A stretch of DNA of 64,000 nt from an uncultured Prevotellaceae bacterium (GTDB lineage: Bacteria; Bacteroidota; Bacteroidia; Bacteroidales; Bacteroidaceae): the NCBI GenBank assembly GCA_900315075.1, contig OMXV01000008.1, positions 1-64,000 on the forward strand, given 5' to 3'. Both the position numbers and the translations under genes were made by a program. This document shows positions 1-21,092 of the stretch, piece by piece. Positions within the stretch are counted from its first letter, which is position 1. Every line of letters starts with the position of its first letter. Under the pieces are notes generated by a model. The model did no database searches, had not been told where the DNA came from, and saw only the letters and a program-made list of their open reading frames with translations.

Positions 1-282
1 CCGGGCGGCGTCGTAGGATGTGCCGTAGATGGTCTTCCCGATGTCCTGCACGGTTGCCGATGTGCCCGAGCAGTACTTGTAGTTGGACCAGCTGTAGGTA
101 GACTTCGTGGTGGTCTCGCCCCACGCGTAGTAGTTGCCATACGCCTCCTGGGTGGATGCCCCGAGGTTGGTCTTCGCCCAGAGCGTCTTGCTGGTGAGGC
201 CCAGGTCGACGTACTCATGGGTGGCTGCCATCAGCGCCACCGGTGCCAAAAGTGCCAGTATCCAAAGCGATAGTCTTTTCAT
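1..282 (-). CDS. Secreted protein with YVDLGL-type repeat domain, 5' part only
   Basis: Only the first 94 codons lie in the window; the gene runs off the left edge. Translation starts at the ATG whose complement is at 280-282. The product opens with a signal peptide (MKRLSLWILALLAPVALMAA) and then has the pattern HEYVDLGL..KTLWAK.N.GA and YGNYYAWGETTTK, typical of the Fibrobacter-succinogenes-major-paralogue-like domain found in many Bacteroidota surface proteins, whose function is unknown. The stretch is visibly richer in G and C (about 60% in the first line) than the rest of the window. The following 287 bp are AT-rich and include the terminator of the operon ending at 570, so this is a separate transcription unit. 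The assignment rests on motif recall; the length is unknown. Confidence 0.7.
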   Translation of the reverse strand, partial: MKRLSLWILALLAPVALMAATHEYVDLGLTSKTLWAKTNLGASTQEAYGNYYAWGETTTKSTYSWSNYKYCSGTSATVQDIGKTIYGTSYDAAR

Positions 283-569
283 GTGTTTTTGATTTAAAAT
301 GGTTAATATATAATCTTTTTTAGGTTTATACCCAGATGATTTGAGATATAACAACGCCACAAAGATAGAGATTTTTTTTTAAATTGACTTGCTCAATTTA
401 AGCATTTATTTGTCGAATTTGAACAAAATAAGCAAATTGCAATCCCAAAAATCAAATAAAAGTGTTTTTCAAAGTATTTTGAGTCATCTACACGGGAGAG
501 TCCCTACAAAAAAGGAAAAGTAGAGACGCCACGTTGGCATCTCTACTTTAGTGTGGTGAAATGAACTCG
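283..569. other. Intergenic region between partial gene and SusCD operon end
   Basis: About 287 bp without a gene. It is strongly AT-rich from roughly 290 to 480 and holds the hairpin terminator at 520-546. The left part should carry the promoter of the partial gene that starts at 282, but no convincing TTTG/TAnnTTTG pair was identified. Confidence 0.5.
520..546 (-). terminator. Hairpin terminator after the FAS1/SusCD operon
   Basis: GTAGAGA at 520-526 pairs with TCTCTAC at 540-546, and inside it GCCA (528-531) pairs with TGGC (535-538) around a CGT loop. On the minus strand the hairpin is followed by CTTTTCCTTTTTT. It lies 24 bp past the stop of the last SusD gene, so it ends the minus-strand operon. 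Plus-strand sequence after it is only weakly T-rich. Confidence 0.8.
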
Positions 570-2354
570 TCAGAATCCTATTTGTCCGTTCCATTTGAGG
601 AACCAATTGTTAGAGTTGTTAAGGTCAACGGATATGAGTGAGCGCATAATGTCGCGCTGGTCATCACCCTTTCGACCATATACCTTGTTGGCAAGGAAAG
701 CAGGATCTCCCCTTCGCAATGCCACACGCATAAGGTCATAGAAACGTAACCCCTCAAAGGCAAACTCAAGTGCCCCTTCATCCACAATCATTTTCTCAAC
801 AGCATCAATCTGGTACTGTATCTGCTGGAGTGAATCGGTAATCAGTGTATCAACGGGCATCTGATAGTAGGCATTGCAATACGACCATCCAGAGCCACGA
901 GAGTGAATGCCCTGCATGTTCTCACCATACATTCCCATGGGTGTTGCCGTGATATACCGCTCATTGGGGAACGAGAATGTCGAGGCAATATAGGCAGAGT
1001 CAGCACGATAGTAAGGAATCACCTCCTCTTGAATCACCTGGTTGGATAATCCCCTCGCCAGGATTTGATAGGCGAATCGTGGATAGCCGGCACGGTTGAG
1101 TGCCTCGGCAAAATGTAGCCACACCATCTGCCGGCGCCATATATGCACATTTCGTGAGGCATACTTATTGATTTGTTGATATGCCACACGTTGTGAGTTA
1201 TAAATGGCATATCCATCGTTCCATGCTCTTGCAAGCCTTAGGTCACCAGTCAAATAGTCGTCGAGGTTATTGGGTGCATAGAGTGTGTCGCGGTCCTCCA
1301 CGTAACAGTATGTCTGTGCGGCCGAAAGATTGATAAGTCCATTGGATGGTACCAATTGAGCGGGATGATACTCACCTGTAGTGACATCAAACGAGTTGAA
1401 GATATTGCGTAACTCCGAGAAGTTACCCTCGGATGGTATGGAGTCGGCAGGAATCATCGTAATGAGTTCAGATTCGTCATTAGGACTAAGTGAGTAGCGT
1501 TCATTGGTGATTAAACTGAGCCAACTGTCACCCCGCATATTCCATGACGTGCCGAACCATTGCACACTTCCCAACCCTGTGGTATATGCCACATTAGTTC
1601 CGTTGCGTGTTGTGATGTAACGATAGTACCACTGGGCAGCCTCACGGTAGTGCCCTGCCCACAGGTTCAACTCGCCGAGCATCAAGGTCGTGGGGAAGTA
1701 GAAGAACCTGGAGTCGGTGCTGCGTATGATGCCATACTGTGGTATGTCGCCATAACGGAGCAGGTATTCGTCGGAGGCCAGTGGCGTAAGGTCTTGGATG
1801 AGCCACTCACAGACTTCTTGTATCCCTTTTTTCTCGTATGGTTTCTCTGCATCGAGTTTGGTAAGGATAGGTTCGGTAACAAATGGAATAGAACCATAGT
1901 TGAGCACCAGTTGCAGATAGGTCCACGCCCTAAAGCCCTTCACTACAGCATACTCCCGTTTGAAAATCTGCTCATTGCGACTGTTGACAAGAGCTGTATC
2001 TACTCGGGAGAGGAAATAGTTGCAATTGTTGATGACAGCATAATAGTCACGTGGATTATTATAGATATTGTCGTCGTCGGTATTGAAGAGCGCCACCTCA
2101 CGCAAGTCGGCCGACGTGGCATCTGCAATGTCAACCAAGTCACCTCGCACCTCTCCAAGGAGAATGGTACGATCGGCGAGTTTCTGCATCTTGTTGAGAA
2201 TGCCTGTCACGCCATAGATGGTATCGGTCGCATTATTAAGTTGATAATCCTCTGCGAATGCCACATGGTCGGATTCTTGTTCAAAGAAATCAGCGCAACT
2301 GCCCAGGAAGAACAATCCTGCACAAGCGAATATACTAAAAATGAACTTTTTCAT
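570..2354 (-). CDS. SusD/RagB-family surface lipoprotein
   Basis: 594 aa. The signal peptide ends in a lipobox (FFLGSC, Cys about residue 20) followed by ADFFEQES, the usual start of mature SusD proteins. The C-terminal region carries the RagB/SusD hallmark EFAFEGLRFYDLMRVALRRGD near residue 535. SusD proteins are outer-membrane lipoproteins that cap the SusC transporter and bind the ligand. This is the last gene of the seven-gene operon, 19 bp after its SusC partner. Its length (about 590 aa) is normal. The ligand cannot be read from the sequence; the local GH51/GH43 gene hints at arabinose-containing glycans, but FAS1 partners are unusual for a glycan locus. Confidence 0.93.
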   Translation of the reverse strand: MKKFIFSIFACAGLFFLGSCADFFEQESDHVAFAEDYQLNNATDTIYGVTGILNKMQKLADRTILLGEVRGDLVDIADATSADLREVALFNTDDDNIYNNPRDYYAVINNCNYFLSRVDTALVNSRNEQIFKREYAVVKGFRAWTYLQLVLNYGSIPFVTEPILTKLDAEKPYEKKGIQEVCEWLIQDLTPLASDEYLLRYGDIPQYGIIRSTDSRFFYFPTTLMLGELNLWAGHYREAAQWYYRYITTRNGTNVAYTTGLGSVQWFGTSWNMRGDSWLSLITNERYSLSPNDESELITMIPADSIPSEGNFSELRNIFNSFDVTTGEYHPAQLVPSNGLINLSAAQTYCYVEDRDTLYAPNNLDDYLTGDLRLARAWNDGYAIYNSQRVAYQQINKYASRNVHIWRRQMVWLHFAEALNRAGYPRFAYQILARGLSNQVIQEEVIPYYRADSAYIASTFSFPNERYITATPMGMYGENMQGIHSRGSGWSYCNAYYQMPVDTLITDSLQQIQYQIDAVEKMIVDEGALEFAFEGLRFYDLMRVALRRGDPAFLANKVYGRKGDDQRDIMRSLISVDLNNSNNWFLKWNGQIGF

Positions 2355-2373
2355 ATTTGGAACTTTTAAGTAA

Positions 2374-5300
2374 TTAGAGGTTGATCTTCACACCGGCTAC
2401 GAATGAACGGCTATGTGGCAAGAGTCCAAGGTCAATACCCTGTCCGATGACCCTTGAGGTCATACTAAACTCTGGGTCGGTACCGAGATATTTCGAGAAC
2501 GTAAGCAAGTTGTTACCCTGTACCCAAATTTGAAGTCCCTGAATGAACTCCGAGTTGAGTGGCAGGTTGTATGAGAGTGTAACCGACTTGAGCTTGAGGT
2601 AGCTACCATCCTCAATCCATCTGTCGCTGAATCTTGAGTTGCCCATTGGGTCTTGGAAGGTGGCTTTGGGAATAGAGGTCTGTTGTCCCTCAATTTGCCA
2701 CCTGGCAAGCATGGCAGAAGATTGGTTCATGAAGCGGCTACCACCCTCTGTTTGTGAACGCATGTAATTATATACATCATTACCCATAGAGTAATTGAAA
2801 CGCACATCGAGTTTAAATCGTTTGTATGCCAATGTGGTAAAGATATTGCCGTAGAAATCAGGGTTGGGGTCGCCGATGAACTGCCGGTCGGCCTCATTGA
2901 TTTCATGATTACCATCCACGTCCTCGAAACACACATCACCTGCCTGGAAATAGTTATGGGTCACGCCGTTGTCGCCCAAGACATACAGACCAGCCTGCTG
3001 AGCCTCCTCACTGGTAGCGAAGACACCCTTGGCCTTATATCCATAGAACATATTGGCAGCCTCACCCACTTGCGACCTGATAGTAGCTCCATAGAGTGCA
3101 TTGTCGATGAATTGTGCATTGTCAGTAAGTTCGGTAATTTTGTTCTTGTAGTGACCGATGCTTGCACCCAACTGCCACTGCCAATTTTTCTGTGCGATAA
3201 TCTTGAAAGCCACTGTAGCGTCAAAACCATTGTTCTCCAATTTTCCGCCATTAGACCAATTTTGGTCGAGACCAGAGAGGAAATTGAGCGACTGGAACAT
3301 AAGCAAGTTGGATGTGTTACTATGGAACCAGTTGAACGACAGAGAAAGTCTGTTGTTCAGCAGCCTTGTATCAAGTCCCAAGTTGATACGTTTGGTAGTT
3401 TCCCACTGTATTTCGGTGTTACCTATGCTGGCCAAAGACAATCCTGAAATTTCGGTCATAAACCTGGAGGCACGGAAGTAGCTACGTGCTGCATAGTAGT
3501 CGATGTCGTCATTGCCACTCACGTCGAATCCTGCCGACAGTTTCAAATAATCGATGCCTTTTACCTTTGCCAACCATGGTTCATTACTGGCCACCCATGC
3601 CACTTGAATCGACGGGAATATGCCCCAAACGGTGTCGAAAGCCTTTAAGCCATCAGCTTCAGAGCCAAATCGCGAACTGCTCTCGACAGTAAGGTTGGCC
3701 TGCAGATAGTAGCGTGTGAGCAAGTTGTAATTAGCCTGTGCATACCATGCCACCGAATTCCATGAATCTTTCGTACCGCTCGCATCACGGTTGAGCAACC
3801 CGGCATGCATGTGCGGAGTCTTGTCGGAACCAGTGTTATATCCCCATTGGTTGTTGAGTGTGTAATTCTCCCAAAGAATACGTGCACCTCCAAACAATTC
3901 GATGTAGTGTGCTCCATAACGGTTTGACCAATCGAGCCGTGTATCGCTCATCACAGAATTCTGTTTCGAAGCTAATGAGCGTACCTCATTCTCCCGATAA
4001 TCGTTAAGACTTGCCACATAGTAGTTGGGCACGCCACTAATGGGGATATAGAATTTCTCGTTGGTGTTGACAAGATTGTAGCTGAAATGCTCACTGAGCG
4101 TGAGATAGGGGTTGAAGCGATACTGTGGTCGCACCGAAAGGTTGAACATCGAGTTTTCGAAGCGGTTTTTATTCTCAGCATCTGCATATTTGTTCAATGC
4201 AAGTGGGTTGGCCAACTGCCAGTTGTAGTTGCCAAAATAGCTCAGCGCCTCGTTGAGATAAGACTCGTCCTCGATATCGATATGACTATTGCTCATCACT
4301 CCCCTACCATAGGTATATGGACTGAGGAAAGGACTCTTGACGTATGCCAAGAAAGCCGGTGAGGTGGGTGTTCCTTCATCATACCCCTTGGGGGCTCCAT
4401 CGTCGCGAATATTGCGTGTCTGGTTGGCGAATGAAGCATCGAATCTTACATTAAACTTATAGGTAAGTTTGATGTCGGTGTTGAATCGTATACTCAAGCG
4501 GTTCATATTATTGAACTTGAGTGTGCTCTGTCCTAAGGTGTATCCCACCGAGAGGTTGTAGTTGGCCACATGGTCACCACCCTCGACATTGATACCATAA
4601 TTTTGTGTTATCGCAGTGCGATAGACATATTCTTTCCAATCAGTATTGTTGTGATACTGTGGATAGTAGTAATAGTCGGGGTTCTCGTTGAGGAACTTAA
4701 ATTCATTGATACGTGTTCCTGTGGTCTTAAGTAGTTCGGATGCATATCCACGATATTGCTCCGCATCCATAATGGATATCATCTTGGGTTCGAGTGTCAC
4801 CCCAGCCGAGAGTGTGGCAGTGATACGTGTAGCCATCGACTTATTACGCCGTGTCTGAATCAGGATAACGCCATTGGCGCCTTTTGCTCCATAGAGTGCC
4901 GTACCATTTCTGAGAACAGTGACATTTTCAATATCGTTGGGATTGATATTATTGAGGATGTCATTGTAGAATCCACTGTGTATCATCTCGCGTCCATACT
5001 GTTGTTCGACAATAACCCCGTCGACAACAATGAGCGGCTGAGCATTGACGTTGAGCGAATTGAGTCCCTGGATGAACATCACATTTCCAATGCCCGGTGT
5101 ACCACTTCGACTGGTGTTATACACTTGTGCGCCAAGTTGGTTTTGCATTTCCTCCTTGATATTCAGGGCATTGGTATATGGGTTCTGTGGCATCGACTGA
5201 TCACCACGCACATTGGTCGTGGATGTATAGTCGGCCTGGAAAGTGGTAGGATACAGCAAGATGTCACGCTGCTGCGTGTCCTGCTGTAATCCGATAATAG

Positions 5301-5613
5301 CAAAATTGTAATCAGGGGCATCTACAGATAACGAGGAGGTGAAAGTAGGCACTTTCAGTTCGTATGTGCCGTCTTCTCCCGTGAGTTTCGAATAGCCTTC
5401 GATTTCGTTTGACCTGACAATGACACCCGGAACTGGAGCTTTGGTAAGCGCATTGATGACGCGTCCCGTGACTGTTCGTGTGTCATAGTCCATCTGTTTT
5501 CTTACCAGCACTTTCTGCGGCTTAGTATTGTAATCGTCGTCTTCATCCTGTGCCATGACTACGGCGGGGAATGCCAACGTAAGGATAAGTCCGAATATAA
5601 TATATCGTTTCAT
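2374..5613 (-). CDS. SusC/RagA-family TonB-dependent transporter
   Basis: 1079 aa. After a signal peptide ending VMAQ, an N-terminal carboxypeptidase-regulatory-like domain (TVTGRVINALTKAPVPGVIV, about 48-67) is followed by a plug domain (PLIVVDG near 195 and NDIENVTVLRNGTALYGAKG, then NGVILIQT) and a long beta-barrel ending in the SusC-type C-terminus (SFVAGVKINL). It should form the outer-membrane channel with the SusD encoded 19 bp downstream. The plug is atypical: where most SusC proteins read P.IRIRG it has GNVMFIQGLNSLN, and it is shorter than the second SusC of the operon. It starts 37 bp after the preceding FAS1 gene in the same transcript. Confidence 0.93.
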   Translation of the reverse strand: MKRYIIFGLILTLAFPAVVMAQDEDDDYNTKPQKVLVRKQMDYDTRTVTGRVINALTKAPVPGVIVRSNEIEGYSKLTGEDGTYELKVPTFTSSLSVDAPDYNFAIIGLQQDTQQRDILLYPTTFQADYTSTTNVRGDQSMPQNPYTNALNIKEEMQNQLGAQVYNTSRSGTPGIGNVMFIQGLNSLNVNAQPLIVVDGVIVEQQYGREMIHSGFYNDILNNINPNDIENVTVLRNGTALYGAKGANGVILIQTRRNKSMATRITATLSAGVTLEPKMISIMDAEQYRGYASELLKTTGTRINEFKFLNENPDYYYYPQYHNNTDWKEYVYRTAITQNYGINVEGGDHVANYNLSVGYTLGQSTLKFNNMNRLSIRFNTDIKLTYKFNVRFDASFANQTRNIRDDGAPKGYDEGTPTSPAFLAYVKSPFLSPYTYGRGVMSNSHIDIEDESYLNEALSYFGNYNWQLANPLALNKYADAENKNRFENSMFNLSVRPQYRFNPYLTLSEHFSYNLVNTNEKFYIPISGVPNYYVASLNDYRENEVRSLASKQNSVMSDTRLDWSNRYGAHYIELFGGARILWENYTLNNQWGYNTGSDKTPHMHAGLLNRDASGTKDSWNSVAWYAQANYNLLTRYYLQANLTVESSSRFGSEADGLKAFDTVWGIFPSIQVAWVASNEPWLAKVKGIDYLKLSAGFDVSGNDDIDYYAARSYFRASRFMTEISGLSLASIGNTEIQWETTKRINLGLDTRLLNNRLSLSFNWFHSNTSNLLMFQSLNFLSGLDQNWSNGGKLENNGFDATVAFKIIAQKNWQWQLGASIGHYKNKITELTDNAQFIDNALYGATIRSQVGEAANMFYGYKAKGVFATSEEAQQAGLYVLGDNGVTHNYFQAGDVCFEDVDGNHEINEADRQFIGDPNPDFYGNIFTTLAYKRFKLDVRFNYSMGNDVYNYMRSQTEGGSRFMNQSSAMLARWQIEGQQTSIPKATFQDPMGNSRFSDRWIEDGSYLKLKSVTLSYNLPLNSEFIQGLQIWVQGNNLLTFSKYLGTDPEFSMTSRVIGQGIDLGLLPHSRSFVAGVKINL

Positions 5614-5650
5614 ATAGGCTTACTGTTTATGGTTGATAGCGTTGGGATGA

Positions 5651-7357
5651 TTATTTCTCTTCATGAGGTTTAACAATAATACAGTCGATACGCAGAATCT
5701 GCGTATAAATATTGTCACGACGCTCACGGTTGGAGAGATTGCTGGCTAAGCGCAAAGTGGCCTGCGGCTCGACGAGTCCTACCGAACATGTCGGTACGCG
5801 AATCGTGCCGAGGAAGACAGTATCTACGACCTCAGGGTTGGTGGTGAAGTAACTCTGTTCGCCATTCATGAGAACGATGGAGTCACTACGTTCCTTACCG
5901 TCCTGCTCATGGAATTTATAGGAACAGCGGAACTTGCATGGTCTTCGTTGTGTCTCTGCCACCAAAGTGTCGCCGGCAACAGCAGGCACCATAACCACAT
6001 AGAGGTCATAATCAATATTAGAAAGCAACTCAGGCAGGTAATAGACGACCTCAGGATTGGTTGCTCCCAATGGGGAGATGACAGCAAAGCGGTTTCTCGA
6101 CACTTTGTTGTAGAATGGATTGGAACTTTCGACCGACCTATAGGAAGGGGTGGCAGTATTGTTCTCGTTCACCTCCTTGAAGACATCACGCGACTCTCCC
6201 TCATTAATGATGGTCTGATAGAAAGTCTGACGTTTATCTATTTTCCAGTCGTTTGCCTTCATTACCATGCCATTGCTACAATCGGTATTAACGGTTCCCG
6301 TGAAGATTCCTCCCTGGTCGAATGGTTTATCATACTGATAATAAGCTAAATCGCTGGAACCAAAGGTACTTTGTCTATAAAGGTAATCGACGGCATTGAC
6401 CGATACAGCCGAATCGCGTAGAGATTCATCCGTATTTTTTGTCCGGCTGAAAACTGTTCCCCTAATGATGGCTGTGCGTGTATTTGCCCATTGCATGGAG
6501 TCTCGCTTATCCACCGTATTATCATAGTTGTAATATGGTGTATATTCAGCCACCAGCCTATCCCAAACCTGATTGGTGGGAACCACCATCCAATAGGTGC
6601 TATCCTCGGAGTTGATTCTTCCAATACCCAAAGACGTACCCCTACCAGCATAGTCGTAGAGCAGTTCGTTCCTAAGCACTGTAACAGAGTCGAGATATAC
6701 GGTTTTTCCATCCTCTATACCTCCTGGTACACTCTCAGTTGGATCAAACTCATATTGGTTGTAACTATATAGGAAATTAGCCAGACTGTCAAGGTCTTTG
6801 TCGTAACGTATCCATTCAAAGACATTCCTGAAATAGTCGGCCTTCTCGCCGATGGTGAAAAGCACGCCATTGCTTGTCTGCTGATTTCGTGAGGCAATGG
6901 GCCTGTTGCCGAAGCGGTCGTTTGTGAGCACCATATACTTTCCGTTCATCATAGTAATGGAGTCGTTAGACAATGATGATACAGAATAGTTGTAAAGTGC
7001 GATATGATTTTGCAGAAATTCCTTGATGGTGGAATTCTCCTTGTCTTTCACCCCTCTGGCCTTTTCCTGTTGATAGACGGCAATGAGATTGTCGGCTTCA
7101 GCGGAAGAGAATGCACTATTGGTAGGTGCAAAGACCGTGAACATCTGTGAACTTGCAAGTGAGGCATCATAGCCCGTAGCCTGCACGACGCGTGCGAAAT
7201 TGCTCAATTCGCTGTTTTGCTGTATCGTCTGCCAGATGGACTGTCCGGCCGATACTGTCGGGCTATAGTGGTCGTTCCACTCGTCGGTACATGCCACCAA
7301 GGCAAGTGCAGCGACCGTGATGCCCAACATATTGCGAAAGTTATGATATATTCTCAT
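5651..7357 (-). CDS. FAS1 (fasciclin) domain surface lipoprotein
   Basis: 568 aa. The signal peptide ends in a lipobox (ALALVAC, Cys about 23). Residues about 38-160 form a FAS1 domain, with the H1 box TVFAPTNSAFSS and a leading IWQTIQQNSELSNFARVVQ helix. A second degenerate FAS1-like segment follows (SLANFLYSYNQYEF, then WMVVPTNQVWDRLVAEY near 255). The last 200 residues look like a beta-sandwich without a recognised family. FAS1 domains are adhesion or ligand-binding folds. Placement between a FAS1 gene (49 bp upstream) and a SusC gene (37 bp downstream) suggests it is an accessory surface-binding protein in the position held by SusE/SusF-type proteins in other loci. That role is inference. 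Confidence 0.85.
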   Translation of the reverse strand: MRIYHNFRNMLGITVAALALVACTDEWNDHYSPTVSAGQSIWQTIQQNSELSNFARVVQATGYDASLASSQMFTVFAPTNSAFSSAEADNLIAVYQQEKARGVKDKENSTIKEFLQNHIALYNYSVSSLSNDSITMMNGKYMVLTNDRFGNRPIASRNQQTSNGVLFTIGEKADYFRNVFEWIRYDKDLDSLANFLYSYNQYEFDPTESVPGGIEDGKTVYLDSVTVLRNELLYDYAGRGTSLGIGRINSEDSTYWMVVPTNQVWDRLVAEYTPYYNYDNTVDKRDSMQWANTRTAIIRGTVFSRTKNTDESLRDSAVSVNAVDYLYRQSTFGSSDLAYYQYDKPFDQGGIFTGTVNTDCSNGMVMKANDWKIDKRQTFYQTIINEGESRDVFKEVNENNTATPSYRSVESSNPFYNKVSRNRFAVISPLGATNPEVVYYLPELLSNIDYDLYVVMVPAVAGDTLVAETQRRPCKFRCSYKFHEQDGKERSDSIVLMNGEQSYFTTNPEVVDTVFLGTIRVPTCSVGLVEPQATLRLASNLSNRERRDNIYTQILRIDCIIVKPHEEK

Positions 7358-7406
7358 AATTATCTAATTCTATATTGATAAATCTAATTCCTGGTTCCCC
7401 TTAGAT

Positions 7407-9488
7407 TTAGAGGTCGTCCTCCTGTACGCCCTCATCGGTTACACCATATACACTCTTAGGTACCAGTTCGAGGTAATCGAGCATAATCTCGTTGTTACCT
7501 AGTCCCTCAGACACGCACCTGAACCGTAGGTAATGGTTCTCGCCTGGCTTGATATGCACGGTACACAGCACAATGCGCAGTGTAGCATAGATTTCGGCGA
7601 AATACTGTCCGGCATCCGAGGCACTACCCTTTCTGAATGCACCGTTGGCACCACGATAGAATCCTTTGTTCTTGAGGTCTTTACGTTCCTCGAGTTTTTC
7701 ATCCTCGGTCATCGTGGTGTTATACTCATTGTCGTGCGAGCCCCAGTATGCATTGCCAAGCAGTGACTCATCACGCAGGTCACGACGCATATCAAGTGGG
7801 ATACCTTGTGGTTCGCCATCGAAATACACCTGTGCGATACCGCGGATTGACATAGCAGCATATCCTAATCGTATCTGGTAGTCACCCTCAGTGGGCACTG
7901 GTGGAATGCGGAATGAGAGGTCGAAGTCACCGTTACACACAAACTCATCCCCACTATACGACCAATATCCGTAACGCGGACGGCGATAGACAAAGTAACC
8001 ATTGTTGCCCACAGTGACACCATCGAGATAGCCATTGGGGAAGAAATAGCAGGTACCTAACAATTCTTCATGACTATAGCGTGCATCATCGGAATAGAGA
8101 CCGTTGCCTTTATAGTTCATGCGCATATTGTTGGTCATCAGTTCTGGGAAGACTGCCGAGAGGTCCATACGCATACGACAGTTCATCACTTCGTTGATGA
8201 CTTTATTGTCATAGACGATTAGTTCATCTACATAGAAATAGCATCCGTTGAGAGCCTCACCACGATAGCCGTCACCAATGGTGGGCTGTATGTGCACACC
8301 CTCAAGCTGATATTGGTTGTCGTAGCGACGGTTGATGTACCTGTCGGTCAGGATACCTTGTCCCTGGAATTTACGCACAGTCAGTTTCTCCACTTTCATC
8401 ATGGTGTGTGGCATCAGCGTGCCATACCATTCAGTGGGGTTCATCTTCTGCGTGTCGATACCAATATCCTCGAGCACAGTCAGCAGGTTGTAACCATGCA
8501 CATTACGGTTGAGCAGATGGTAGGCGATAAGTCGGTTGAGCGGGTTGCGGCGGTCGGTGGCATTCTCAAGACTGTGCCAAGCCTCGTTTTGTCCTCCATA
8601 CATGGGGTCATACACCTCGCAGGCTTTCCTATAAAGGCCCTCTATATCGTGGATACCATATCTGTCGCTAAGCACTGCATCGGGTACGATGAATGCCGTA
8701 TATCCCAGCAACCTCTCCTTAGGTGCACGTGCAGCCTCACGAATGGGGTTGGCTGCATCACCGCCGGTATTGTAGTCGTGCCATTCCGGCTGTCCGTTGG
8801 TATTGAGTGGCTGGTGATAGCTCTCGTCCTTGTATCTATAGAGTGAGTCGCTAAGTCCTGTGAGCCGCAGTGCCTCGCTGAAAAGGCTTATGTTTGGATT
8901 CTGCCGTATAATATCGGGAAGCATACGATTTGAACTTTGCAGCACACGGTCGATAGGCTGTACGATACCATTCTCCACGGAGTCGTCCTGTAATTCGTAA
9001 TAGATATGCGCATCGTCGTTGAGAAAGACGACGGCATTGCTATCGTTATCGAGTTTTCGCGACACCTCAAGATATCTACTGTTCATGTTTGGTGTCGTAA
9101 GCACTCCATCAGGCATATCGAAAGTGGTGTACATCACATCCATGAGGTGTGTTCGGGCGATAGTATCGCAATCGGCCTTGCTAAGTTGGTCGATGGATGA
9201 ATAACCGCGCTCAGAGAGATAACGGTTGACAGCATCGTTGTCAGGTGCAAAACAGGTATAGGCACCGTACGCCGAAAGTAGGTCCATCAGGCCTGCACGA
9301 GTGACGATAGACGCAAACAGACTATATTGGTCTCTCGTCTGCAGATAGGTGCTCATCATTTCACCCTTGAAAGTATAGTAGTTTTCGCTGTCGGGCTCAT
9401 CGGAGCATCCCACCATCATGGTACACATCATACACAGTGTACCAATAAGTACAGCTATATTATTATTGATTGTCTTTATCATAGTCAT
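7407..9488 (-). CDS. FAS1 domain surface lipoprotein with CBM-like C-terminus
   Basis: 693 aa. A hydrophobic leader with lipobox MMVGC (Cys about 28) precedes a FAS1 domain (about 48-170, with AYTCFAPDNDAVNRYL). A second FAS1 repeat follows (about 190-420, ISLFSEALRLTGLSDSL, TAFIVPDAVLSDRYGI). Residues about 430-690 form a carbohydrate-binding-like beta-sandwich (FRIPPVPTEGDYQIRLGY, then IAQVYFDGEPQGIPLDMR, ending MLDYLELVPKSVYG). It sits 26 bp downstream of a SusD gene and 49 bp upstream of another FAS1 gene. The combination of FAS1 repeats and a possible glycan-binding sandwich supports a surface ligand-binding role; the ligand is unknown. An alternative start two codons in (MIKTIN) is possible. 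Confidence 0.86.
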   Translation of the reverse strand: MTMIKTINNNIAVLIGTLCMMCTMMVGCSDEPDSENYYTFKGEMMSTYLQTRDQYSLFASIVTRAGLMDLLSAYGAYTCFAPDNDAVNRYLSERGYSSIDQLSKADCDTIARTHLMDVMYTTFDMPDGVLTTPNMNSRYLEVSRKLDNDSNAVVFLNDDAHIYYELQDDSVENGIVQPIDRVLQSSNRMLPDIIRQNPNISLFSEALRLTGLSDSLYRYKDESYHQPLNTNGQPEWHDYNTGGDAANPIREAARAPKERLLGYTAFIVPDAVLSDRYGIHDIEGLYRKACEVYDPMYGGQNEAWHSLENATDRRNPLNRLIAYHLLNRNVHGYNLLTVLEDIGIDTQKMNPTEWYGTLMPHTMMKVEKLTVRKFQGQGILTDRYINRRYDNQYQLEGVHIQPTIGDGYRGEALNGCYFYVDELIVYDNKVINEVMNCRMRMDLSAVFPELMTNNMRMNYKGNGLYSDDARYSHEELLGTCYFFPNGYLDGVTVGNNGYFVYRRPRYGYWSYSGDEFVCNGDFDLSFRIPPVPTEGDYQIRLGYAAMSIRGIAQVYFDGEPQGIPLDMRRDLRDESLLGNAYWGSHDNEYNTTMTEDEKLEERKDLKNKGFYRGANGAFRKGSASDAGQYFAEIYATLRIVLCTVHIKPGENHYLRFRCVSEGLGNNEIMLDYLELVPKSVYGVTDEGVQEDDL

Positions 9489-9514
9489 AATCTTCTCGTA
9501 ATGATTAATGTGGG

Positions 9515-11245
9515 TTACTTACCGGTGGCAGAATTCTCGATGCTACTATCCTCGCCACTTCCGAAGGCAGGATTTTGCACAAGGTTCTTGTTCACCTTGA
9601 TTTCCTCAATGTTGTATGGCCAGAAGATGGCATCCATACGTGTCAGCTTACTATTGGCAATCGAGGCATTCTCGAGTCCTTTCTGTGCCACAGCGGTGCG
9701 CAGGTAGAGTGTGTTGCCATCACGCAGAGAACGTCTGACAAGGTCGTACCACCGCTTACCCTCGAAGAGGAACTCACGATGGCGCTCCTTCATCACCAAC
9801 TCTTCCATCTGTGCCTTCGTGCCATAGTCTGCCAGATGTAACGTATCTTTGTCGCTTAACGTCGCACGACAGAGACTACGCTTGTTGACAGCGTTAACAA
9901 GGTTGAAAGCCCTTTCCTGCAACTGTGCATTTTCCTCGCTTTCGCCATCGGTCATCATCTGTGTGAGAGCCTCTGCCTTGAGAAGCATGATGTCGGTGAG
10001 CCGGTAGATAATCCAGTTGGAGTGGTTTTTCTCATCGGCGTATGACAAGGTTGTTGTCACACTGGCAGAGGAAGCATTCTGGTCGAATGAGATGGTAGCA
10101 TCTGAATAGACATACTTGGCGATATTGGCCGACGTTGCAGAAATCTGGACCAAAGCCTCGTATGCCCGTGCGTCGTATTTATTTGAGAAGACGGCATAGG
10201 CACTGTTGATTTGGTCGAGACCCACATAGTCGGACGGCTTCACAAGGAAGATATGGTCTTTGTCGAAGCCATATTTCCTGCACACTGCCCAGTTGGTCAA
10301 GCGGTTATCATCATTCACGAAAGTGAGTTCAAAGATGCTCTCAGAGCTATTGCCTTTTCCAAAAATTTGGTAGTATGCATAGCCATACATGGATGTGGAA
10401 TAATTTTCCCTGAGCAAAGGGAATCCATTAAAGCGTGTCTGCATATCGCTAAGCAATTGTCCTTCTTTCTCCTTGGCATACCTCTGGTAAGCCTCGATAA
10501 CGAGGTCGGCATAACGAATACAGTTGGCATAGTCTTTCTTCCATAGATACATTTCACAGAGCATAGCATGGATAGCATCCTGTGTGATACGCCCCGTCTG
10601 GTAATTCTGACTTGTCTCCGGGTAACGTTTCACTGCGTCGTTCTGCACTTTTTCAAGGTCAGCAATCAGCAGGTTAAGCACCTCATTGAAAGGCGTTGCA
10701 GGGATATCCATCACCTGGTCATCGTCGAGATACGGTTCCGTTGTATAAGGAATATCACGGAAGGTACGTATGAGATAGAAGTAGCATAGGTCTCTGATAG
10801 CAGATGCCTCGGCGATGGTAGCCCGCAGTTCACTCTCGGTATAAGAGGGATCTTTCTCAGCCACAGAGGGGGCATAGTAGATGACGGTGTTGCATCGGTT
10901 GATGACATCGTAGAATCCACTCCATCCCGTATAATAGTTGGATGCGTTGATATTCTCTACAAGCAATCGATGGAGGTCGAGGTCTTTCTGCTGTGCCGTA
11001 CCAGTGGTATTGACATTCTCGGAACGGAACTCACCCCATGCCATCATACGTGAAATCACAGCATCGCTCTGCATACCCGAGTAGCATCCTGCAATGATAT
11101 TATCGACATCCTTTTTCTCGTTCCAGAACTGCTCAAGGATGATTTCATTTCGCGGTTCGATTTCGAGGAAGTCGCCACATGCCGTCAGCGTCAGTAACGA
11201 GATAACAGCACAACTCAGTATATTTTTGATATCATAATGTCTCAT
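9515..11245 (-). CDS. SusD/RagB-family surface lipoprotein
   Basis: About 576 aa from the ATG at 11245. The open frame extends nine codons upstream to 11272, but the internal Met starts a proper lipoprotein signal (MRHYDIKNILSCAVISLLTL, lipobox TLTAC) and is preferred. Mature start GDFLEIEPRNEI is the classic SusD sequence, and EFLFEGKRWYDLVRRSLRDGN near the C-terminus is the family signature. It is 33 bp downstream of its SusC partner. It is more typical of the family than the SusD at 570, so the two pairs are not recent identical copies. Confidence 0.94.
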   Translation of the reverse strand: MRHYDIKNILSCAVISLLTLTACGDFLEIEPRNEIILEQFWNEKKDVDNIIAGCYSGMQSDAVISRMMAWGEFRSENVNTTGTAQQKDLDLHRLLVENINASNYYTGWSGFYDVINRCNTVIYYAPSVAEKDPSYTESELRATIAEASAIRDLCYFYLIRTFRDIPYTTEPYLDDDQVMDIPATPFNEVLNLLIADLEKVQNDAVKRYPETSQNYQTGRITQDAIHAMLCEMYLWKKDYANCIRYADLVIEAYQRYAKEKEGQLLSDMQTRFNGFPLLRENYSTSMYGYAYYQIFGKGNSSESIFELTFVNDDNRLTNWAVCRKYGFDKDHIFLVKPSDYVGLDQINSAYAVFSNKYDARAYEALVQISATSANIAKYVYSDATISFDQNASSASVTTTLSYADEKNHSNWIIYRLTDIMLLKAEALTQMMTDGESEENAQLQERAFNLVNAVNKRSLCRATLSDKDTLHLADYGTKAQMEELVMKERHREFLFEGKRWYDLVRRSLRDGNTLYLRTAVAQKGLENASIANSKLTRMDAIFWPYNIEEIKVNKNLVQNPAFGSGEDSSIENSATGK

Positions 11246-11278
11246 AATCGTCTGTTTTTCGCTAATTATCATCCATAG

Positions 11279-14200
11279 TTAGAAGTCAACTGTAATACCA
11301 CCCGTAAAGGAGCGTGCCCTTGGGGTCTGTCCCCAGTCTGTAGCTGCTCCATATCCACCATAGTTCACCTCGGGGTCAACTCCTGAATATTTCGTAAGTA
11401 CGAAGGGGTTGTTGACACTGGCATAGAAATTCAAGCTGTTTATCCCTATATCTCGGAGGAATTTAGCTTTAAACAAATAGGAGATCTGTGTATAGTTCAT
11501 TCTTAAGAAACTACCATTCTCAACAAATCGGTCACTGATAAGAGTATTGTAATTGGTGGTATTTCCATACATAGCTCTTGGAATAGTGGTGACATCTCCC
11601 TCCTTACGCCATCTGTAGTTGACAGCCTGACTTTGGTTATTGTTGCTGGTCATTGCCTCATTGTTAAGCCTTGCCATATTGAGAATCTTGTTGCCCACAC
11701 GATAGGAGAACTGTGTCATTAATCTCCATTTATCATACTTGAGGACAAATCCAAATCCACCATACAGTTTTGGCAGTGAACTTCCTAAATACACAATATC
11801 GAGGGCATTAATATTGCCATCGTTATTGATATCTTCATAGATGGCATCACCTCCGGAGAATTTATAGTTTACAATCTGTGCCGGGTCGTTGGAATAACCA
11901 AACTGCATTCTTACCGGCATACCTTTATCATCGATAATGACATTGCCATCTGCATTAATAGCAACAGGAGCTGTCTTTCCTTCGGCTATAAACTGGCTAC
12001 GCTGCTCATCGTTCATGTCGGCAAAGGTATCATAATTGTACTGATACACTCCTTTGTAACGGAATCCATAGATGGCACCGAAGGGGTTGTGCAGTTGTAC
12101 ACGCTGCAAAACCTTGGCATTCTCGTATGTAAACACCGAGTTAAGATTCTTGAGAAGGTTTTCGTCCAAAGACAAAATTTCGTTTCTGTTGTTACCAAAA
12201 TTGACATTGAAGTCGAGAGAGAATTTACCTTTCTCGATGACCTTATTGCCATTGATATAGAACTCCCATCCCATATTGCTCATCTTACCATTGTTTTTAT
12301 AGTCCAAACGGGTGTATCCCGCATTAGACGGTATGCGGAAACCTCCCATGAGCATGTCCTTGGTTGTATTCTTGTACAAGTCGAGTGTGAATCTGAGTTT
12401 GTCGTTCCAGAATCCCAGTTCCAGTCCTGCTTCAAGTTTCACAATCGTCTCCCACTGCAAGTCGTTAAGTCTGATATTGATAGGTTTCATGGCCGCCATA
12501 TCGAGATAAGTATCAGTCTGTGCATACTTGCTGGTGTAGAGATAGTCGCTCCTGGGTGCCGAACCAGAGATACTCCAACCCGCACGAACACCTAAGGTCG
12601 AGATAGTCTTATCCTCATATAATTTCTGCATGAATTTTTCCTTCACAATATTCCATCTGAAGGTAGCTCCAGGGAAATATCCCCATCTACGACCAGGTCC
12701 AAATTTCGTAGTACCCGTGACATTCACGTTGGTATAGAAAATGTAGCGATCAAGGAGAATATAGTTGACCAAGCCCGTGAAATATAGCGACCTCCACTCT
12801 CCAAAGCTACTGTTCAGTCCTGTGATAAGGCCTCCTGCGTCAGGACTTGTGATATTTCCCGAGGGCAGTCCCTTACCATTGTTGTACTGTCCGCTTGATG
12901 AGCCAGAGACAAGTTCCATCATAGCCTTGGCCAGTATTTTATGATTATCAGACCCTGTAAATGGTGTGAGTTCCAACTCTTGTCTTGTAGTAAGCTGTAC
13001 ATTCTTGGAATTACCATTATAGGATGTATTATGCCCACTCTGCCATGTGGTAGAAACCAGTTCTGAAGGATAATAACTATCAATATACCTATTAGCTATA
13101 TTCATATTCACCGACCCTTTCCAATCGAGCTGCCAGTGGTCTTTGTCAAGTCCAAGCAGTCGATAACGCATGATGAGTTCAGGCACCATATCGTAGGAAC
13201 GTGATTCATATTTTGCCAAATTAGCAGATGCTACAGGATTGACATATCTGCGCTGGTCATTTTCAAACACGGCAGACCCCATATTTGGTCCACTTTGGAG
13301 CATATTGTAATAGCGGTCGGTATTCTCACCCGTCACTCGGTCCTGCTCATAAATACTCATGTTAGGCATCTTCACCAAGGCGATGGAAAGCAGGTTGTCG
13401 GAGTTCTGATGGTTGTTCGTGTAGGTAAGAGCGAAGTTAGTGGACACGCGAATACGCTCAGAGATATCGTAGTCGAGGTTGACACGAGTGGAGAAACGGT
13501 CAAGTTGCTGTTTGATAATTGAACCCGTCTCATGATCGTAACCACCAGAAATACGGAATTTGGCTTTTTCACCACCTCCGGTGATAGTGATATGATGATT
13601 CTGACGGACTCCCCATTGTGTGACCGCATCCACCCAGTCGGTGTTGTTGTTATACTGCTCATATTCCGAGAACTGCGGATCGTAGTTGATTTCAGGAACA
13701 TTCGATGCAGCATTACTCTGTTCTGGGTTGAAATAGCTCTCCTTGAGCAACATGGTATAGTCATCGCCAGAAAGCAAGTCATATCCCTTTGGCTGGTAAG
13801 TACCCGAGAGTTTAAAGGAGTAAGTAAGATGTGGCCGTCCGATGGTACCACGTTTAGTGGTGATTTCGATGACGCCATTACCTCCACGTGGTCCATAGAT
13901 AGAGGTGGAGGCACCCTTAAGCACCTGAATATCCTCAATATCTTCGGGGTTGATACGCAATAGTTGTGCAAACTGCTCATCGCTCGACGAACCGAGGTCG
14001 AATGTAGCAAGTTCTCCTGTTTCATCCTCCCAAATATTTTCGTCGATGACGATAAGAGGATTGGCATTGGTCAGCGAAGATAGTGAGTTGGTACCACGCA
14101 GACGCATGGTAGAACCCGAACCGAGGTTACCTGAGTTGGCCACGATATCAAGACCTGCAATACGTCCTTGCATAGCCTCTTCGATAGATGTCACTGAAAG

Positions 14201-14620
14201 ACCGTCAAGGTTTTTTGTAGAGAGCGACTGTGTGGAGAATGAAACCTCATCTTCTGCCAGTGCCAGTCCATTACCTCTCAGTCGTTTTTTCGCCGTGACG
14301 GTGACTTCCTTGAGTTGTCCTTCTGACTCCAAGACCACGTCATAGACAGTCTTGTTGATAGGCAACGTCATTTTCTTGTATCCCACGTATGAGAACTGGA
14401 TTTTGTCCTTTGGGTTCTTGATTTTCATGGAGAAGTTACCATTAATATCCGTAATGGCACTCTCGATGACACGCCCATTGCCATCCACCTCACATACGAC
14501 AGCACCAATCAGAGGGTCGTTTTCATCGCTTACCGTACCCGACACCTGTGTAATCTGTGCCTGCATGGCCACTGCGAACAACAGTGACCATAATGTTAGT
14601 ATGATTCTATATCTTTTCAT
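11279..14620 (-). CDS. SusC/RagA-family TonB-dependent transporter
   Basis: 1113 aa. The signal peptide (LLFAVAMQAQ) is followed by a carboxypeptidase-regulatory-like domain (VSGTVSDENDPLIGAVV, about 27-100), a TonB-box-like segment (LKEVTVTAKK), a plug with STMRLRGTNSLS, PLIVIDENIWED and IEDIQVLKGASTSIYGPRG, and a barrel ending ARSFTGGITVDF. It should import the ligand captured by the SusD encoded 33 bp downstream. Its ATG overlaps the stop codon of the FAS1 gene by 4 bp (ATGA), so the two are probably translationally coupled. Confidence 0.95.
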   Translation of the reverse strand: MKRYRIILTLWSLLFAVAMQAQITQVSGTVSDENDPLIGAVVCEVDGNGRVIESAITDINGNFSMKIKNPKDKIQFSYVGYKKMTLPINKTVYDVVLESEGQLKEVTVTAKKRLRGNGLALAEDEVSFSTQSLSTKNLDGLSVTSIEEAMQGRIAGLDIVANSGNLGSGSTMRLRGTNSLSSLTNANPLIVIDENIWEDETGELATFDLGSSSDEQFAQLLRINPEDIEDIQVLKGASTSIYGPRGGNGVIEITTKRGTIGRPHLTYSFKLSGTYQPKGYDLLSGDDYTMLLKESYFNPEQSNAASNVPEINYDPQFSEYEQYNNNTDWVDAVTQWGVRQNHHITITGGGEKAKFRISGGYDHETGSIIKQQLDRFSTRVNLDYDISERIRVSTNFALTYTNNHQNSDNLLSIALVKMPNMSIYEQDRVTGENTDRYYNMLQSGPNMGSAVFENDQRRYVNPVASANLAKYESRSYDMVPELIMRYRLLGLDKDHWQLDWKGSVNMNIANRYIDSYYPSELVSTTWQSGHNTSYNGNSKNVQLTTRQELELTPFTGSDNHKILAKAMMELVSGSSSGQYNNGKGLPSGNITSPDAGGLITGLNSSFGEWRSLYFTGLVNYILLDRYIFYTNVNVTGTTKFGPGRRWGYFPGATFRWNIVKEKFMQKLYEDKTISTLGVRAGWSISGSAPRSDYLYTSKYAQTDTYLDMAAMKPINIRLNDLQWETIVKLEAGLELGFWNDKLRFTLDLYKNTTKDMLMGGFRIPSNAGYTRLDYKNNGKMSNMGWEFYINGNKVIEKGKFSLDFNVNFGNNRNEILSLDENLLKNLNSVFTYENAKVLQRVQLHNPFGAIYGFRYKGVYQYNYDTFADMNDEQRSQFIAEGKTAPVAINADGNVIIDDKGMPVRMQFGYSNDPAQIVNYKFSGGDAIYEDINNDGNINALDIVYLGSSLPKLYGGFGFVLKYDKWRLMTQFSYRVGNKILNMARLNNEAMTSNNNQSQAVNYRWRKEGDVTTIPRAMYGNTTNYNTLISDRFVENGSFLRMNYTQISYLFKAKFLRDIGINSLNFYASVNNPFVLTKYSGVDPEVNYGGYGAATDWGQTPRARSFTGGITVDF

Positions 14621-17247
14621 GGTCTATTGCTCTGGTTTCTGATTTCATTGAGTTCCTGCTGCCAGGTTTTTGCCTTCAGGTCGTTGTTGAAGAGTAGTAC
14701 ACCATCGATGAGATGAACCACAGCGTCTGACGCGGAATTAATCGACATGTTGTTGCCTGACCCACTGAACCAGTACTCACGACATATTTTGTTGTATAGT
14801 CCATTGTTAGTGATGACATGGCGGGTGTTGCCCAACTGGTCGGTAACTGTCAGTGCGGATGGCCCCGCATTGACTTCAAGTGAGAAGAATCGCTGGTTTT
14901 CAGGATTGAGTTTAGCCGTCTCAAACTTAGTGTTGTTGACAGGGTCGCAGCCGATATACACTGCATTATCCTGAATGTGGTATCGCACAAAATTGAAGAT
15001 ACGGTTACGGATAGCGGCACGTGCTGCCCTTACCTTGGCATCATCGTCGTTCCATGCCTCGAGTGTCTGAGCCTCATAGTCATCCCATGTAGGTAAGTAA
15101 CCCTCGTCGATTAACTGTTGTATCGACTCGTTTGTAGGCACATAGACGGTATAATTGAACTTATCGAAAAGTCGGATGTTGTAGTTGTTGGTAGGATCCA
15201 CGCATTTGTAGTTACCATCCTGAGTGATAAGGAGGTTGTACTTGGTGGAGTCTTCATCGTTGCCGCTGAGCAGGTCGAGGAAGAGGCTCATCTGCTCATG
15301 TTCCTTGAGTGTAGCATAGACCGACTTGCTGGCACCGAGAATCATGCCATCGTTGGTGACATACGATTTTCCATTGCCCGAAGTGCTTTGGTCATAGATG
15401 GTCGAGACGGTGAGGGGATTGCCAGTCTCCATCTGGTAGCCACCGCTGACAGTCATTCTCCATGGCTGTCCGGCATCGGTGACTTTCACCACCGAACCAC
15501 CCTTGGTCTTGTAATACTGCTGTCCACTCTCTACGTCACCCACCACAATCAGCATATCGAGCAAGTCGGTAAGACGGTTGCGGATTTGTGCCTGCGGTGC
15601 ATTACCGAGAGGTGAACCCACGGTATAGTTGCCAGTTTCCGGGTCGATGATAATCTGGTATCTTCTTGCCTTTACACGGCTGTCGAGAACTGCCTTGGGA
15701 TCCCAGTAAAACTCATACAAAGTCTGAATGGGTTCGCCATAGGTAGTTGGGTCGATGTAGTAGAGCATGGCATTATTGGTAGGTATAAAGAAACTGTAGT
15801 ACGACTCCATAGAGTTGAGGTATGGACTGAAGTCATACTGTGTGATAGCCCAGTAGATGATGCTCATCACATCCTGGTGAATCAGTGCCGGGAACGACAC
15901 GCTGGAATAGGCACTGGGAGCGAATACATGGTTGGAGAGATAGACCACACCATTGCATCCCATGAAGCACGAGTCGATATGCTCTGGTTTCACACCCATT
16001 TCCATCTTTGCATCGTTGAGGATAGAACCGAACTTCGAAGGCACAGACGAAGTAAACGAGTTGAGCATATTGACATTGAGGAGCTCGGCAAGCACCAAAT
16101 CGGGAATGGAATCCCACTCATGGTACTCATCCTGCAGCACTTTTCCGTCATGCTCCCACCAATACTCCAATGCCTGATTATTTGGCACAATCATCACGGC
16201 GGCATCGTTGCTGATACCCTGATTGGTGGTGGCATTGTAGTTAAAATATTGGTTCCATCCCGGGTCGTAGGTCAGTGTAGCCTCAACAGCCTCATCATCG
16301 GGGTCGGTTTGCAGACGAGCACGTCCACTGGATATATTGGAATAATACCTAAGCACATAGACGGAGTCGAGACGACCTGTCTTCTCATACCATGAGCGGC
16401 TTGCAGGCTCGCTGTAATATGGAGCCGAATATCTGTCGATAAGATGTGACCACAAACTCATGTTGGGGTGCTGTCTCAGAATCTCAGCGATATTGCTCGA
16501 CGACTCTATCACGCCCGACACCTTCTGTATATAACCGTTTTTACAGGTGATGTCACGTTCGATGACTTTCTTTCCATTTACCCAAGCATCGCTGACAGAG
16601 TTTGACTCGCCATTGGTCAGGATGGCCAGGTCTTGGTCGGTAATCTGATTGGTGTGCATAAAGGCAGGCATGAAGTGAATCATGGGCGATGCCGTAGCGT
16701 CTTTTAAGATGAGAATACCGTTCTTTTTCTCACGATGCTTGTCCCAGACATGGGTGTTTGGCATTTGTGAGGGCAGCAACACCGATACAGAGTCGAACTC
16801 AGATACAGCAGTTGCTCTACGCATACACATTCCCTCCTGAGGTGGGTTGCCGCTCAGGTTGGACAAAAGTTCAATGAGGTAGGCATTGTTAACCATGGAG
16901 TTGTTGAGCAACAGTTTTTTCTGCGACTCCGACAGCTGCTCATAGCTTCTCACACCCCATTTGTTGGTGCGGAACCATTCAGCATACGAATTGTCGTCGG
17001 CGACAAATAACGTCTTAGAGCCTGTCCTGCTCAACACTTCCGTCTGGCCAAGGTCATCGATGAGCCTCAGCGTGGTCTGGTAGTTGCCATCTTCTTGCAG
17101 TCGCTCATATATGGAGTTTCCCAGCCATTCCGGCTGTCCGGTGAGTAGGTCGTCGGAACACGACGACACCACCGAGGCTCCTATGAGCAGACAACTGAAG
17201 GCTACTGCCATCATACGTCCGTTGTTTAGGATCTTTCTTTTTTTCAT
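14617..17247 (-). CDS. Large FAS1-repeat surface lipoprotein, first gene of operon
   Basis: 876 aa. Signal peptide with lipobox SVVSSC (Cys about 30), then several fasciclin-like segments: about 45-140 (KTLFVADDNSYAEWF), about 250-440 (AEILRQHPNMSLWSHLIDRY, AVMIVPNNQALEYWW), about 465-590 (YSFFIPTNNAMLYYIDP) and about 660-870 (YTVYVPTNESIQQLIDEG, ending HLIDGVLLFN). It is the promoter-proximal gene of the seven-gene operon and overlaps the next SusC gene by 4 bp. FAS1 repeats act as adhesion or binding modules; here a surface binding role next to the SusCD pair is inferred. Repeat boundaries are approximate and the middle repeats are degenerate. No promoter matching the Bacteroidota consensus was found just upstream; a REP-like element lies there instead. 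Confidence 0.85.
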   Translation of the reverse strand: MKKRKILNNGRMMAVAFSCLLIGASVVSSCSDDLLTGQPEWLGNSIYERLQEDGNYQTTLRLIDDLGQTEVLSRTGSKTLFVADDNSYAEWFRTNKWGVRSYEQLSESQKKLLLNNSMVNNAYLIELLSNLSGNPPQEGMCMRRATAVSEFDSVSVLLPSQMPNTHVWDKHREKKNGILILKDATASPMIHFMPAFMHTNQITDQDLAILTNGESNSVSDAWVNGKKVIERDITCKNGYIQKVSGVIESSSNIAEILRQHPNMSLWSHLIDRYSAPYYSEPASRSWYEKTGRLDSVYVLRYYSNISSGRARLQTDPDDEAVEATLTYDPGWNQYFNYNATTNQGISNDAAVMIVPNNQALEYWWEHDGKVLQDEYHEWDSIPDLVLAELLNVNMLNSFTSSVPSKFGSILNDAKMEMGVKPEHIDSCFMGCNGVVYLSNHVFAPSAYSSVSFPALIHQDVMSIIYWAITQYDFSPYLNSMESYYSFFIPTNNAMLYYIDPTTYGEPIQTLYEFYWDPKAVLDSRVKARRYQIIIDPETGNYTVGSPLGNAPQAQIRNRLTDLLDMLIVVGDVESGQQYYKTKGGSVVKVTDAGQPWRMTVSGGYQMETGNPLTVSTIYDQSTSGNGKSYVTNDGMILGASKSVYATLKEHEQMSLFLDLLSGNDEDSTKYNLLITQDGNYKCVDPTNNYNIRLFDKFNYTVYVPTNESIQQLIDEGYLPTWDDYEAQTLEAWNDDDAKVRAARAAIRNRIFNFVRYHIQDNAVYIGCDPVNNTKFETAKLNPENQRFFSLEVNAGPSALTVTDQLGNTRHVITNNGLYNKICREYWFSGSGNNMSINSASDAVVHLIDGVLLFNNDLKAKTWQQELNEIRNQSNRP

Positions 17248-17401: not shown

Positions 17402-17455
17402 ATGTCCCTTTAACTACTTTTTAACTACCCTTTAACTACTTTTTAACTACCCTTG
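17402..17455. repeat. TTTAACTAC word array
   Basis: Four to five tandem copies of a 10-12 bp unit built on TTTAACTAC, opened by ATGTCCC. The array runs into the 3' end of the GH51-GH43 gene: its last two codons and TAA stop (minus strand GGT AGT TAA) are part of the array. Related arrays lie at 41408-41466, 46313-46370 and, inverted, 47555-47612. Confidence 0.85.
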
Positions 17456-21042: not shown

Positions 21043-21092
21043 AAGATTATATAGTAAAGCAAAACGTCTGTGTTGGAGAAAACGCAAAATGC

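Follow-up and report, generated by a model that had tools for sequence, protein, structure and literature searches.

The 64,000-nucleotide stretch of DNA considered here (hereafter the window), from an uncultured Prevotellaceae bacterium, contains at positions 570–17247 seven genes that form one conserved, co-inherited cassette, in which each position has its own protein family. The genes code for three lipoproteins with fasciclin (FAS1) domains and two transporter pairs of the SusC–SusD (SusCD) type, in the order FAS1a-SusC1-SusD1-FAS1b-FAS1c-SusC2-SusD2. SusC1 often keeps its TonB box while SusC2 has lost it, an asymmetry that is new relative to the original prediction, which was made from the DNA letters alone. 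We consider the cassette to be a SusCD variant that has not been described previously; it is well supported as a unit, and its mechanism is in part deduced.

Conservation of the cassette

Seven open reading frames (ORFs) of the minus strand fill this region (Table 1). Their identity and order, as originally predicted, agree with the ORFs and with the Pfam and NCBIfam matches, and so do the gaps, of -4, 6, 26, 49, 37 and 19 bp: the second one, between SusC1 and SusD1, is 6 bp when counted from the start of the SusD1 ORF and 33 bp, the predicted value, when counted from a later ATG.

The heptad recurs in many genomes, far more than expected by chance. Among 90 distinct cassette loci, 69 have all seven genes, 66 of them in the canonical order (an additional FAS1b is present in one of these) and 3 in another order, while 16 are cut by the end of the contig or of the fetched sequence and 5 are without one recognised member; this tally relies on score thresholds that we set, on hidden Markov models (HMMs) trained on 28 of these loci, and on loci found with SusC1 or FAS1 queries. 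It leaves out two duplicates (L068, L165) and two loci that are not cassettes (L117, L125), and two assignments were changed by hand after inspection (L020 from cut to incomplete, L081 from incomplete to cut). In the reordered loci FAS1a comes last (L009), or FAS1b comes last (L011) or first (L017); a loss of FAS1b in L017 was considered and rejected, since the gene is found ahead of FAS1a. The incomplete loci are without FAS1b in the operon (L016, L020), without FAS1c (L080, L175) or without a recognised SusD2 (L082). An orphan FAS1b (L162) is present on the same contig as L020; in L016, no FAS1b is found inside the operon or directly beside it. Both SusC1 and SusC2 are present in 74 of the 74 uncut loci. 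A constant eighth gene after SusD2 was also considered and rejected: the flanking proteins are single or fall in groups of at most three.

The operon had been predicted to consist of two units, each FAS1-SusC-SusD, and one additional FAS1 gene. This two-module model is rejected, because FAS1a, FAS1b and FAS1c are not copies of one family: position-specific HMMs built from 28 loci were applied to 27 held-out loci and placed 189 out of 189 proteins at their own position, so that the three FAS1 proteins are distinct families. What is conserved as a unit is the entire heptad. In a FastTree phylogeny of 75 sequences, the 27 SusC1 form one clade (support 100) and the 27 SusC2 another (99), apart from 21 other SusC, 19 of which come from the window's own genome; the tree is midpoint-rooted, which leaves open whether SusC1 and SusC2 are sisters. 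The SusC1 and SusC2 subtrees contain largely the same subgroups. When the trees of all seven genes are compared over 54 loci, any two of them have 31–41 of 51 splits in common and their distances correlate with r of 0.84–0.94; upon permutation of the labels, the SusC1 and SusC2 trees have on average 0.26 splits in common, and at most 2. This agreement is due in part to shared species history, but several genomes contain two or more cassettes that belong to different clades, each of them intact. These data are most simply read as a single assembly of the cassette, followed by inheritance as a unit.

Distribution

The window is the start of a contig of a 4.5 Mb assembly (completeness 99.99, contamination 6.96), and the same genome contains a second, diverged cassette on another contig (L006). 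Within this genome, the best other match of SusC1 is there (37% over query residues 5–1113, E 9.8e-173), the next single piece having an E of 3.5e-54. The seven L006 genes have the same order on one strand, and code for proteins of 760, 1102, 526, 604, 569, 1066 and 580 amino acids. A gene for an ExbB-like proton channel (L006 16409–17302, plus strand) adjoins this second cassette and starts divergently from it; farther out, a thyA-like gene and other housekeeping genes were recognised by eye.

At an E of 1e-140, SusC1 matches at least 39 places in 24 of 247 genomes of the order, a lower bound since at most three candidates per genome were scored, and FAS1 genes occur in the same run as SusC1 in all of the 37 places that remain once the window and L006 are set aside. 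Across the phylum (296 genomes, E 1e-125, two candidates scored), 7 genomes are matched, including the window's own, and the 7 places outside it are all complete cassettes. A search with the FAS1 family PF02469, which is independent of SusC1, matches 16 of 99 genomes of the order, 11 of which have cassettes (split over contigs in the genome G038); no SusC or SusD gene is found near the other FAS1 genes of those genomes in any of 9 loci, one 94-residue G038 fragment being left aside. The linkage of FAS1 genes to SusCD thus holds in many genomes, as does their order in 66 of the 90 loci; a lack of such linkage had been named as what would refute the prediction.

The FAS1b profile matches 40 of 395 genomes of the class at E 1e-25. 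The match is near full length (E 1e-90 or better) in 9 of them, the gene context being covered in these 9 minus G712 and G862; in the remaining 31 the matches are weak and lie over the FAS1 part, the longest one spanning 6–358 of 546 positions. A scan of named genomes with a FAS1b alignment confirmed 301 places, of which the best 80 were considered: 29 are cassettes or cut cassettes, and the remaining 51 comprise orphan FAS1b-like proteins, further FAS1 proteins and places without a label. The carriers among these best 80 include Paraprevotella clara YIT 11840, metagenome-assembled genomes (MAGs) of Prevotella and other Bacteroidaceae/Prevotellaceae, a Muribaculaceae MAG, Leeuwenhoekiella nanhaiensis, a Salegentibacter MAG, Algibacter miyuki and Chitinophagaceae bacterium PMP191F, while Sphingobacterium faecale has a variant cassette. 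One genome of 2.7 Mb (G108) has nine cassettes (L009, L011, L016, L163, L164, L166–L169), two of them on one contig, which suggests that the cassette may be a main uptake route in some lineages. FAS1b-like proteins are also encoded as orphans outside cassettes, for the most part in Bacteroidaceae/Bacteroidales MAGs (L074, L076, L077, L083, L103, L104, L106, L110, L112, L120, L138, L162); it may be that they serve cassettes in trans.

The two SusC proteins

Both SusC proteins of the window score well above the curated cut-off of TIGR04056 (SusC/RagA; 623 bits for SusC1 and 547 bits for SusC2, against 368). Their closest solved relatives (best E 3e-88 and 2e-81, respectively) are SusC homologues and RagA: the closest SusC sequences are 8aa4 and 5t3r, both named SusC homolog, which we take to be the dextran and levan SusC, and 6sli is an example of a RagA-type match. 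The SusD1 lid matches PF07980 (E 1e-23) and PF14322 (E 1e-13); SusD2 matches PF14322 (E 2e-8) and PF07980 (E 6e-5), the latter barely over the cut-off (23.2 against 23.1 bits).

According to the accessible text of the work on the levan utilisome (PMC7618045), SusC makes its TonB box available to TonB upon loading, and the box spans D82–G88 in the levan SusC. A strict pattern, [ED][VI]x[VI], was scored at the aligned columns, together with a looser one. The strict pattern is found in 20 of 21 other SusC, in 36 of 56 SusC1 and in none of 56 SusC2, and the loose one in 20/21, 44/56 and 6/56, respectively; one SusC1 row that has no residues there (the shortened frame of L064) and two SusC2 rows with few are counted as misses. 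Control segments, obtained by shifting, match in 0–6 of 56. A position-specific scoring matrix derived from the other SusC exceeds the 95th percentile of each sequence's own shuffles for 20/21 of the other SusC (leave-one-out), 48/86 SusC1 and 3/76 SusC2; the last rate is that expected by chance. In the window, the segment LKEVTVTA of SusC1 aligns with the TonB box of other SusC, and the corresponding segment is shortened in SusC2 and its close relatives. Some SusC2, such as those of L036, L045 and L057, have a half-like segment at this site. Being devoid of a TonB box, SusC2 is probably not pumping by the usual route.

The FAS1 proteins

PF02469 matches the three FAS1 proteins of the window with E of 1e-9 (FAS1a), 7e-13 (FAS1b) and 2e-13 (FAS1c); the scores of the three proteins are 50.9, 49.4 and 39 bits, against a cut-off of 22. 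FAS1a, which is assigned to FAS1 by sequence, has three FAS1 domains according to a custom HMM, and its relatives mostly have 3–5. FAS1b and FAS1c show the FAS1 fold by AlphaFold2 and VIA-align, contrary to what would have refuted the prediction, and their models also bear out the prediction that two of the FAS1 proteins end in β-sandwich domains: each is modelled as two fasciclin domains followed by a sandwich that resembles the carbohydrate-binding module (CBM) family CBM35. The FAS1b model (confidence, pLDDT, of 82.7) aligns with periostin/TGFBIp, and also with a xanthan-lyase domain, MiXBM and CBM35. A match to the CBM35 sequence family was sought as well, and none was found at the criterion used.

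The lipobox cysteine is unchanged in 34 of 34 aligned sequences for FAS1a (Cys30), in 35 of 35 for FAS1b (Cys28) and in 35 of 35 for FAS1c, and the residues that start from it in the window are CSDDL, CSDEP and CTDEW. With respect to an acidic signal for export to the surface, at least one acidic residue occurs at +2 to +5 in 40 of 54 sequences per FAS1 position, in a count that has no control and takes the wrong cysteine in some rows, including that of the window's FAS1a. The prediction that the FAS1 proteins are surface binding proteins of the SusCD transporters stands insofar as they are conserved lipoproteins of the operon, two of them with CBM-like sandwiches; for these reasons a role in surface binding is the best reading.

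Proposed function and alternatives

We think it rather probable that the cassette is a single inherited, seven-component outer-membrane machine for the import of complex glycans, in which SusC1D1 is powered and SusC2D2 is its unpowered partner. The loss of the TonB box in the second barrel of a lasting pair is best explained in this manner. We infer the surface location, the glycan substrate, the physical complex and the hetero-dimerisation. The three FAS1 lipoproteins would replace the glycan-binding proteins of the SusE/F type and build an extracellular layer for capture and scaffolding, to which two of them would contribute their CBM35-like sandwiches. SusC1-SusD1 would be a TonB-powered "pedal-bin" transporter, and the paralogous pair SusC2-SusD2 would most likely complete an asymmetric SusC–SusD hetero-dimer with SusC1-SusD1 and act as a docking platform. 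The idea of a hetero-dimer is suggested by the levan SusCD, a dimer according to the accessible text (PMC7618045).

A bolder version, which we hold only tentatively, is that of an obligate asymmetric dual-barrel importer: SusC1D1 and SusC2D2 would form a hetero-dimer with one powered barrel for two lids or substrate chambers, under a canopy of three fasciclin proteins, the SusC partner being permanently unpowered. SusCD systems dominate the nutrient uptake of gut and environmental Bacteroidota, and to our knowledge the solved SusCD complexes use one SusCD species. If the proposal is true, SusCD machines can be heteromeric, a SusC can abandon TonB coupling, and fasciclin domains are a separate class of uptake-linked surface proteins. 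The difference between the TonB boxes of SusC1 and SusC2 makes the reason why SusCD dimerise directly testable.

The same genes could instead encode, in a common operon, two independent TonB-driven SusCD transporters that take up two related oligosaccharides, with FAS1a–c as ordinary binders and a merely diverged TonB box in SusC2. Tandem SusCD pairs are indeed common in polysaccharide utilisation loci (PULs), and the half-like segments and the few loose matches in SusC2 would agree with divergence; however, neither SusC occurs without the other in the uncut loci, their trees mirror each other and the strict TonB box is absent from every SusC2 examined, so that we find this explanation unlikely. 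It is rather improbable, too, that the cassette imports a large ligand other than a glycan (protein, peptide or glycoconjugate) or serves surface adhesion, the FAS1 domains being protein-binding modules as in periostin/TGFBIp: although animal FAS1 domains bind proteins, SusCD of the RagAB type import peptides and some cassettes sit among housekeeping genes, two of the three FAS1 proteins carry CBM35-like domains and genes for carbohydrate-active enzymes (CAZymes) or sulfatases adjoin a good part of the cassettes.

That the locus is an ordinary PUL in which FAS1 proteins were recruited locally, and no special system, is very improbable. FAS1 genes do occur in such surroundings: L117 has one next to a SusCD pair that is not part of a cassette, and in the accessible text of an article on Gramella one is named in the legend of a figure of a cellulose-type PUL (PMC4891872). 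But the same seven families are found, mostly in one order, across several families of the class, the other FAS1 genes of the sampled genomes are not beside SusCD (0 of 9 loci), and the held-out assignments, the concordant gene trees and the 90-locus tally all speak against local recruitment. We favour the single import machine over these explanations.

Relation to known systems

The utilisomes that gut Bacteroides have for levan and dextran likewise consist of SusC barrels, SusD lids and further surface lipoproteins of one locus, which form a stable complex; as described in the accessible text (PMC7618045), they are built from a homodimer of one SusC/SusD species, together with a single binding protein and a single enzyme. 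The cassette, in contrast, has two diverged SusCD pairs, three FAS1 lipoproteins, a second SusC without a TonB box and no enzyme: none is found among its seven genes by Pfam and NCBIfam, and the surface glycoside hydrolase that is a member of utilisomes has no counterpart. The prediction that the operon encodes no enzyme is thus correct for 570–17247, although the immediate neighbours of this region include CAZyme genes.

Like the cassette, the starch utilisation system (SusC-D-E-F) has non-enzymatic surface binding lipoproteins beside SusCD, but SusE/F are not known to have FAS1 domains and the SusCD pair is single. The RagAB peptide importer of Porphyromonas, which the SusC proteins of the cassette resemble as SusCD-type TonB-dependent transporters (by sequence matches such as 6sli), is also a single pair, without known FAS1 proteins. 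The FAS1 fold is common to the cassette proteins and to canonical fasciclin proteins (periostin, TGFBIp and bacterial FAS1), whereas the other FAS1 genes in the sample of genomes mostly lie away from SusCD (0/9 loci beside it, with L117 as an exception), and their matches to the FAS1b profile are confined to its FAS1 part. L117 is a second, separate FAS1–SusCD association: in this Prolixibacteraceae MAG (4268–11233, plus strand), a non-cassette SusC-SusD is followed by a three-domain FAS1 protein of 447 amino acids.

The literature searched contains no account of a cassette in which FAS1 proteins accompany two SusCD pairs, which is weak evidence since subscription journals and bioRxiv are thinly covered. 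The figure legend on Gramella is the nearest mention; in their accessible text, an article on the BAM complex of Flavobacterium does not contain the term FAS1 (PMC12611786), and one on a mussel symbiont reports a highly transcribed FAS1 gene without a link to SusCD (PMC10199937).

Neighbouring genes

Among 20 neighbours of cassettes that were scanned singly, 5 have glycoside hydrolase (GH) domains (GH51, GH2, GH95, GH5 and MGH1-like) and 3 others have domains of the CBM or lectin-like kind. No Pfam family matches a further 5, and the remainder is mixed, including ATP-synthase-type and ExbB-like proteins. For 51 further neighbours, the families listed (25 of 65) include sulfatase (3), GH88, GH43, SASA esterase and parts of hybrid two-component systems (2 each), GH78 once, and housekeeping families. 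Ten of the 51 proteins were read singly, among them a sulfatase, SASA esterases, a GH8, a sugar transporter, a hybrid regulator and a chaperonin. For the cassettes that have such neighbours, glycan import fits, with substrates that would vary from one cassette to another.

In the window, the cassette is surrounded by genes for a GH51, two GH43, a GH5, a GH-cc protein and proteins with lectin domains. The GH51-type gene is on the same strand and ends 195 bp upstream of the cassette, and a homologue of it directly follows another cassette, in L013. On the basis of the neighbouring GH51 and GH43 genes, the substrate in the window may be an arabinose-rich hemicellulose or pectin.

Table 1. Features of the cassette and of its immediate flanks in the window
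Feature	Position	Strand	Description
FAS1a, cassette position 1	14617..17247	-	876 aa, lipoprotein, tandem FAS1 domains
SusC1, position 2	11279..14620	-	1113 aa, TonB-dependent outer-membrane barrel, TonB box LKEVTVTA
SusD1, position 3	9515..11272	-	585 aa, lid lipoprotein
FAS1b, position 4	7407..9488	-	693 aa, modelled as two FAS1 domains (~35-427) and a CBM35-like C-terminal sandwich (~436-682)
FAS1c, position 5	5651..7357	-	568 aa, modelled as two FAS1 domains (~28-376) and a CBM35-like C-terminal sandwich (~379-568)
SusC2, position 6	2374..5613	-	1079 aa, SusC-family barrel without recognisable TonB box
SusD2, position 7	570..2354	-	594 aa, lid lipoprotein
Terminator-like hairpin after SusD2	517..549	-	15 pairs and T-run; strong, consensus match only
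GH51-type alpha-L-arabinofuranosidase with CBM4/9, neighbour outside the cassette	17443..21087	-	PF22848 E 2e-49, PF06964 E 1e-26

Beyond the terminator of the cassette, positions 1–282 (minus strand) code for the start of an apparently secreted protein (VDLGL..YYAWGET-type), truncated by the end of the contig. Near the CAZyme genes, two large similar proteins of 1179 and 1046 amino acids (21207–24746 and 33492–36632, minus strand) have no Pfam family at the thresholds used. Last, the region 50561–62074 (plus strand) encodes a SusC, a SusD, a putative zinc metallopeptidase Mx1, a DUF4302 protein, a 586-amino-acid protein without Pfam match and an M6 peptidase; this operon looks like a protease-type SusCD locus.
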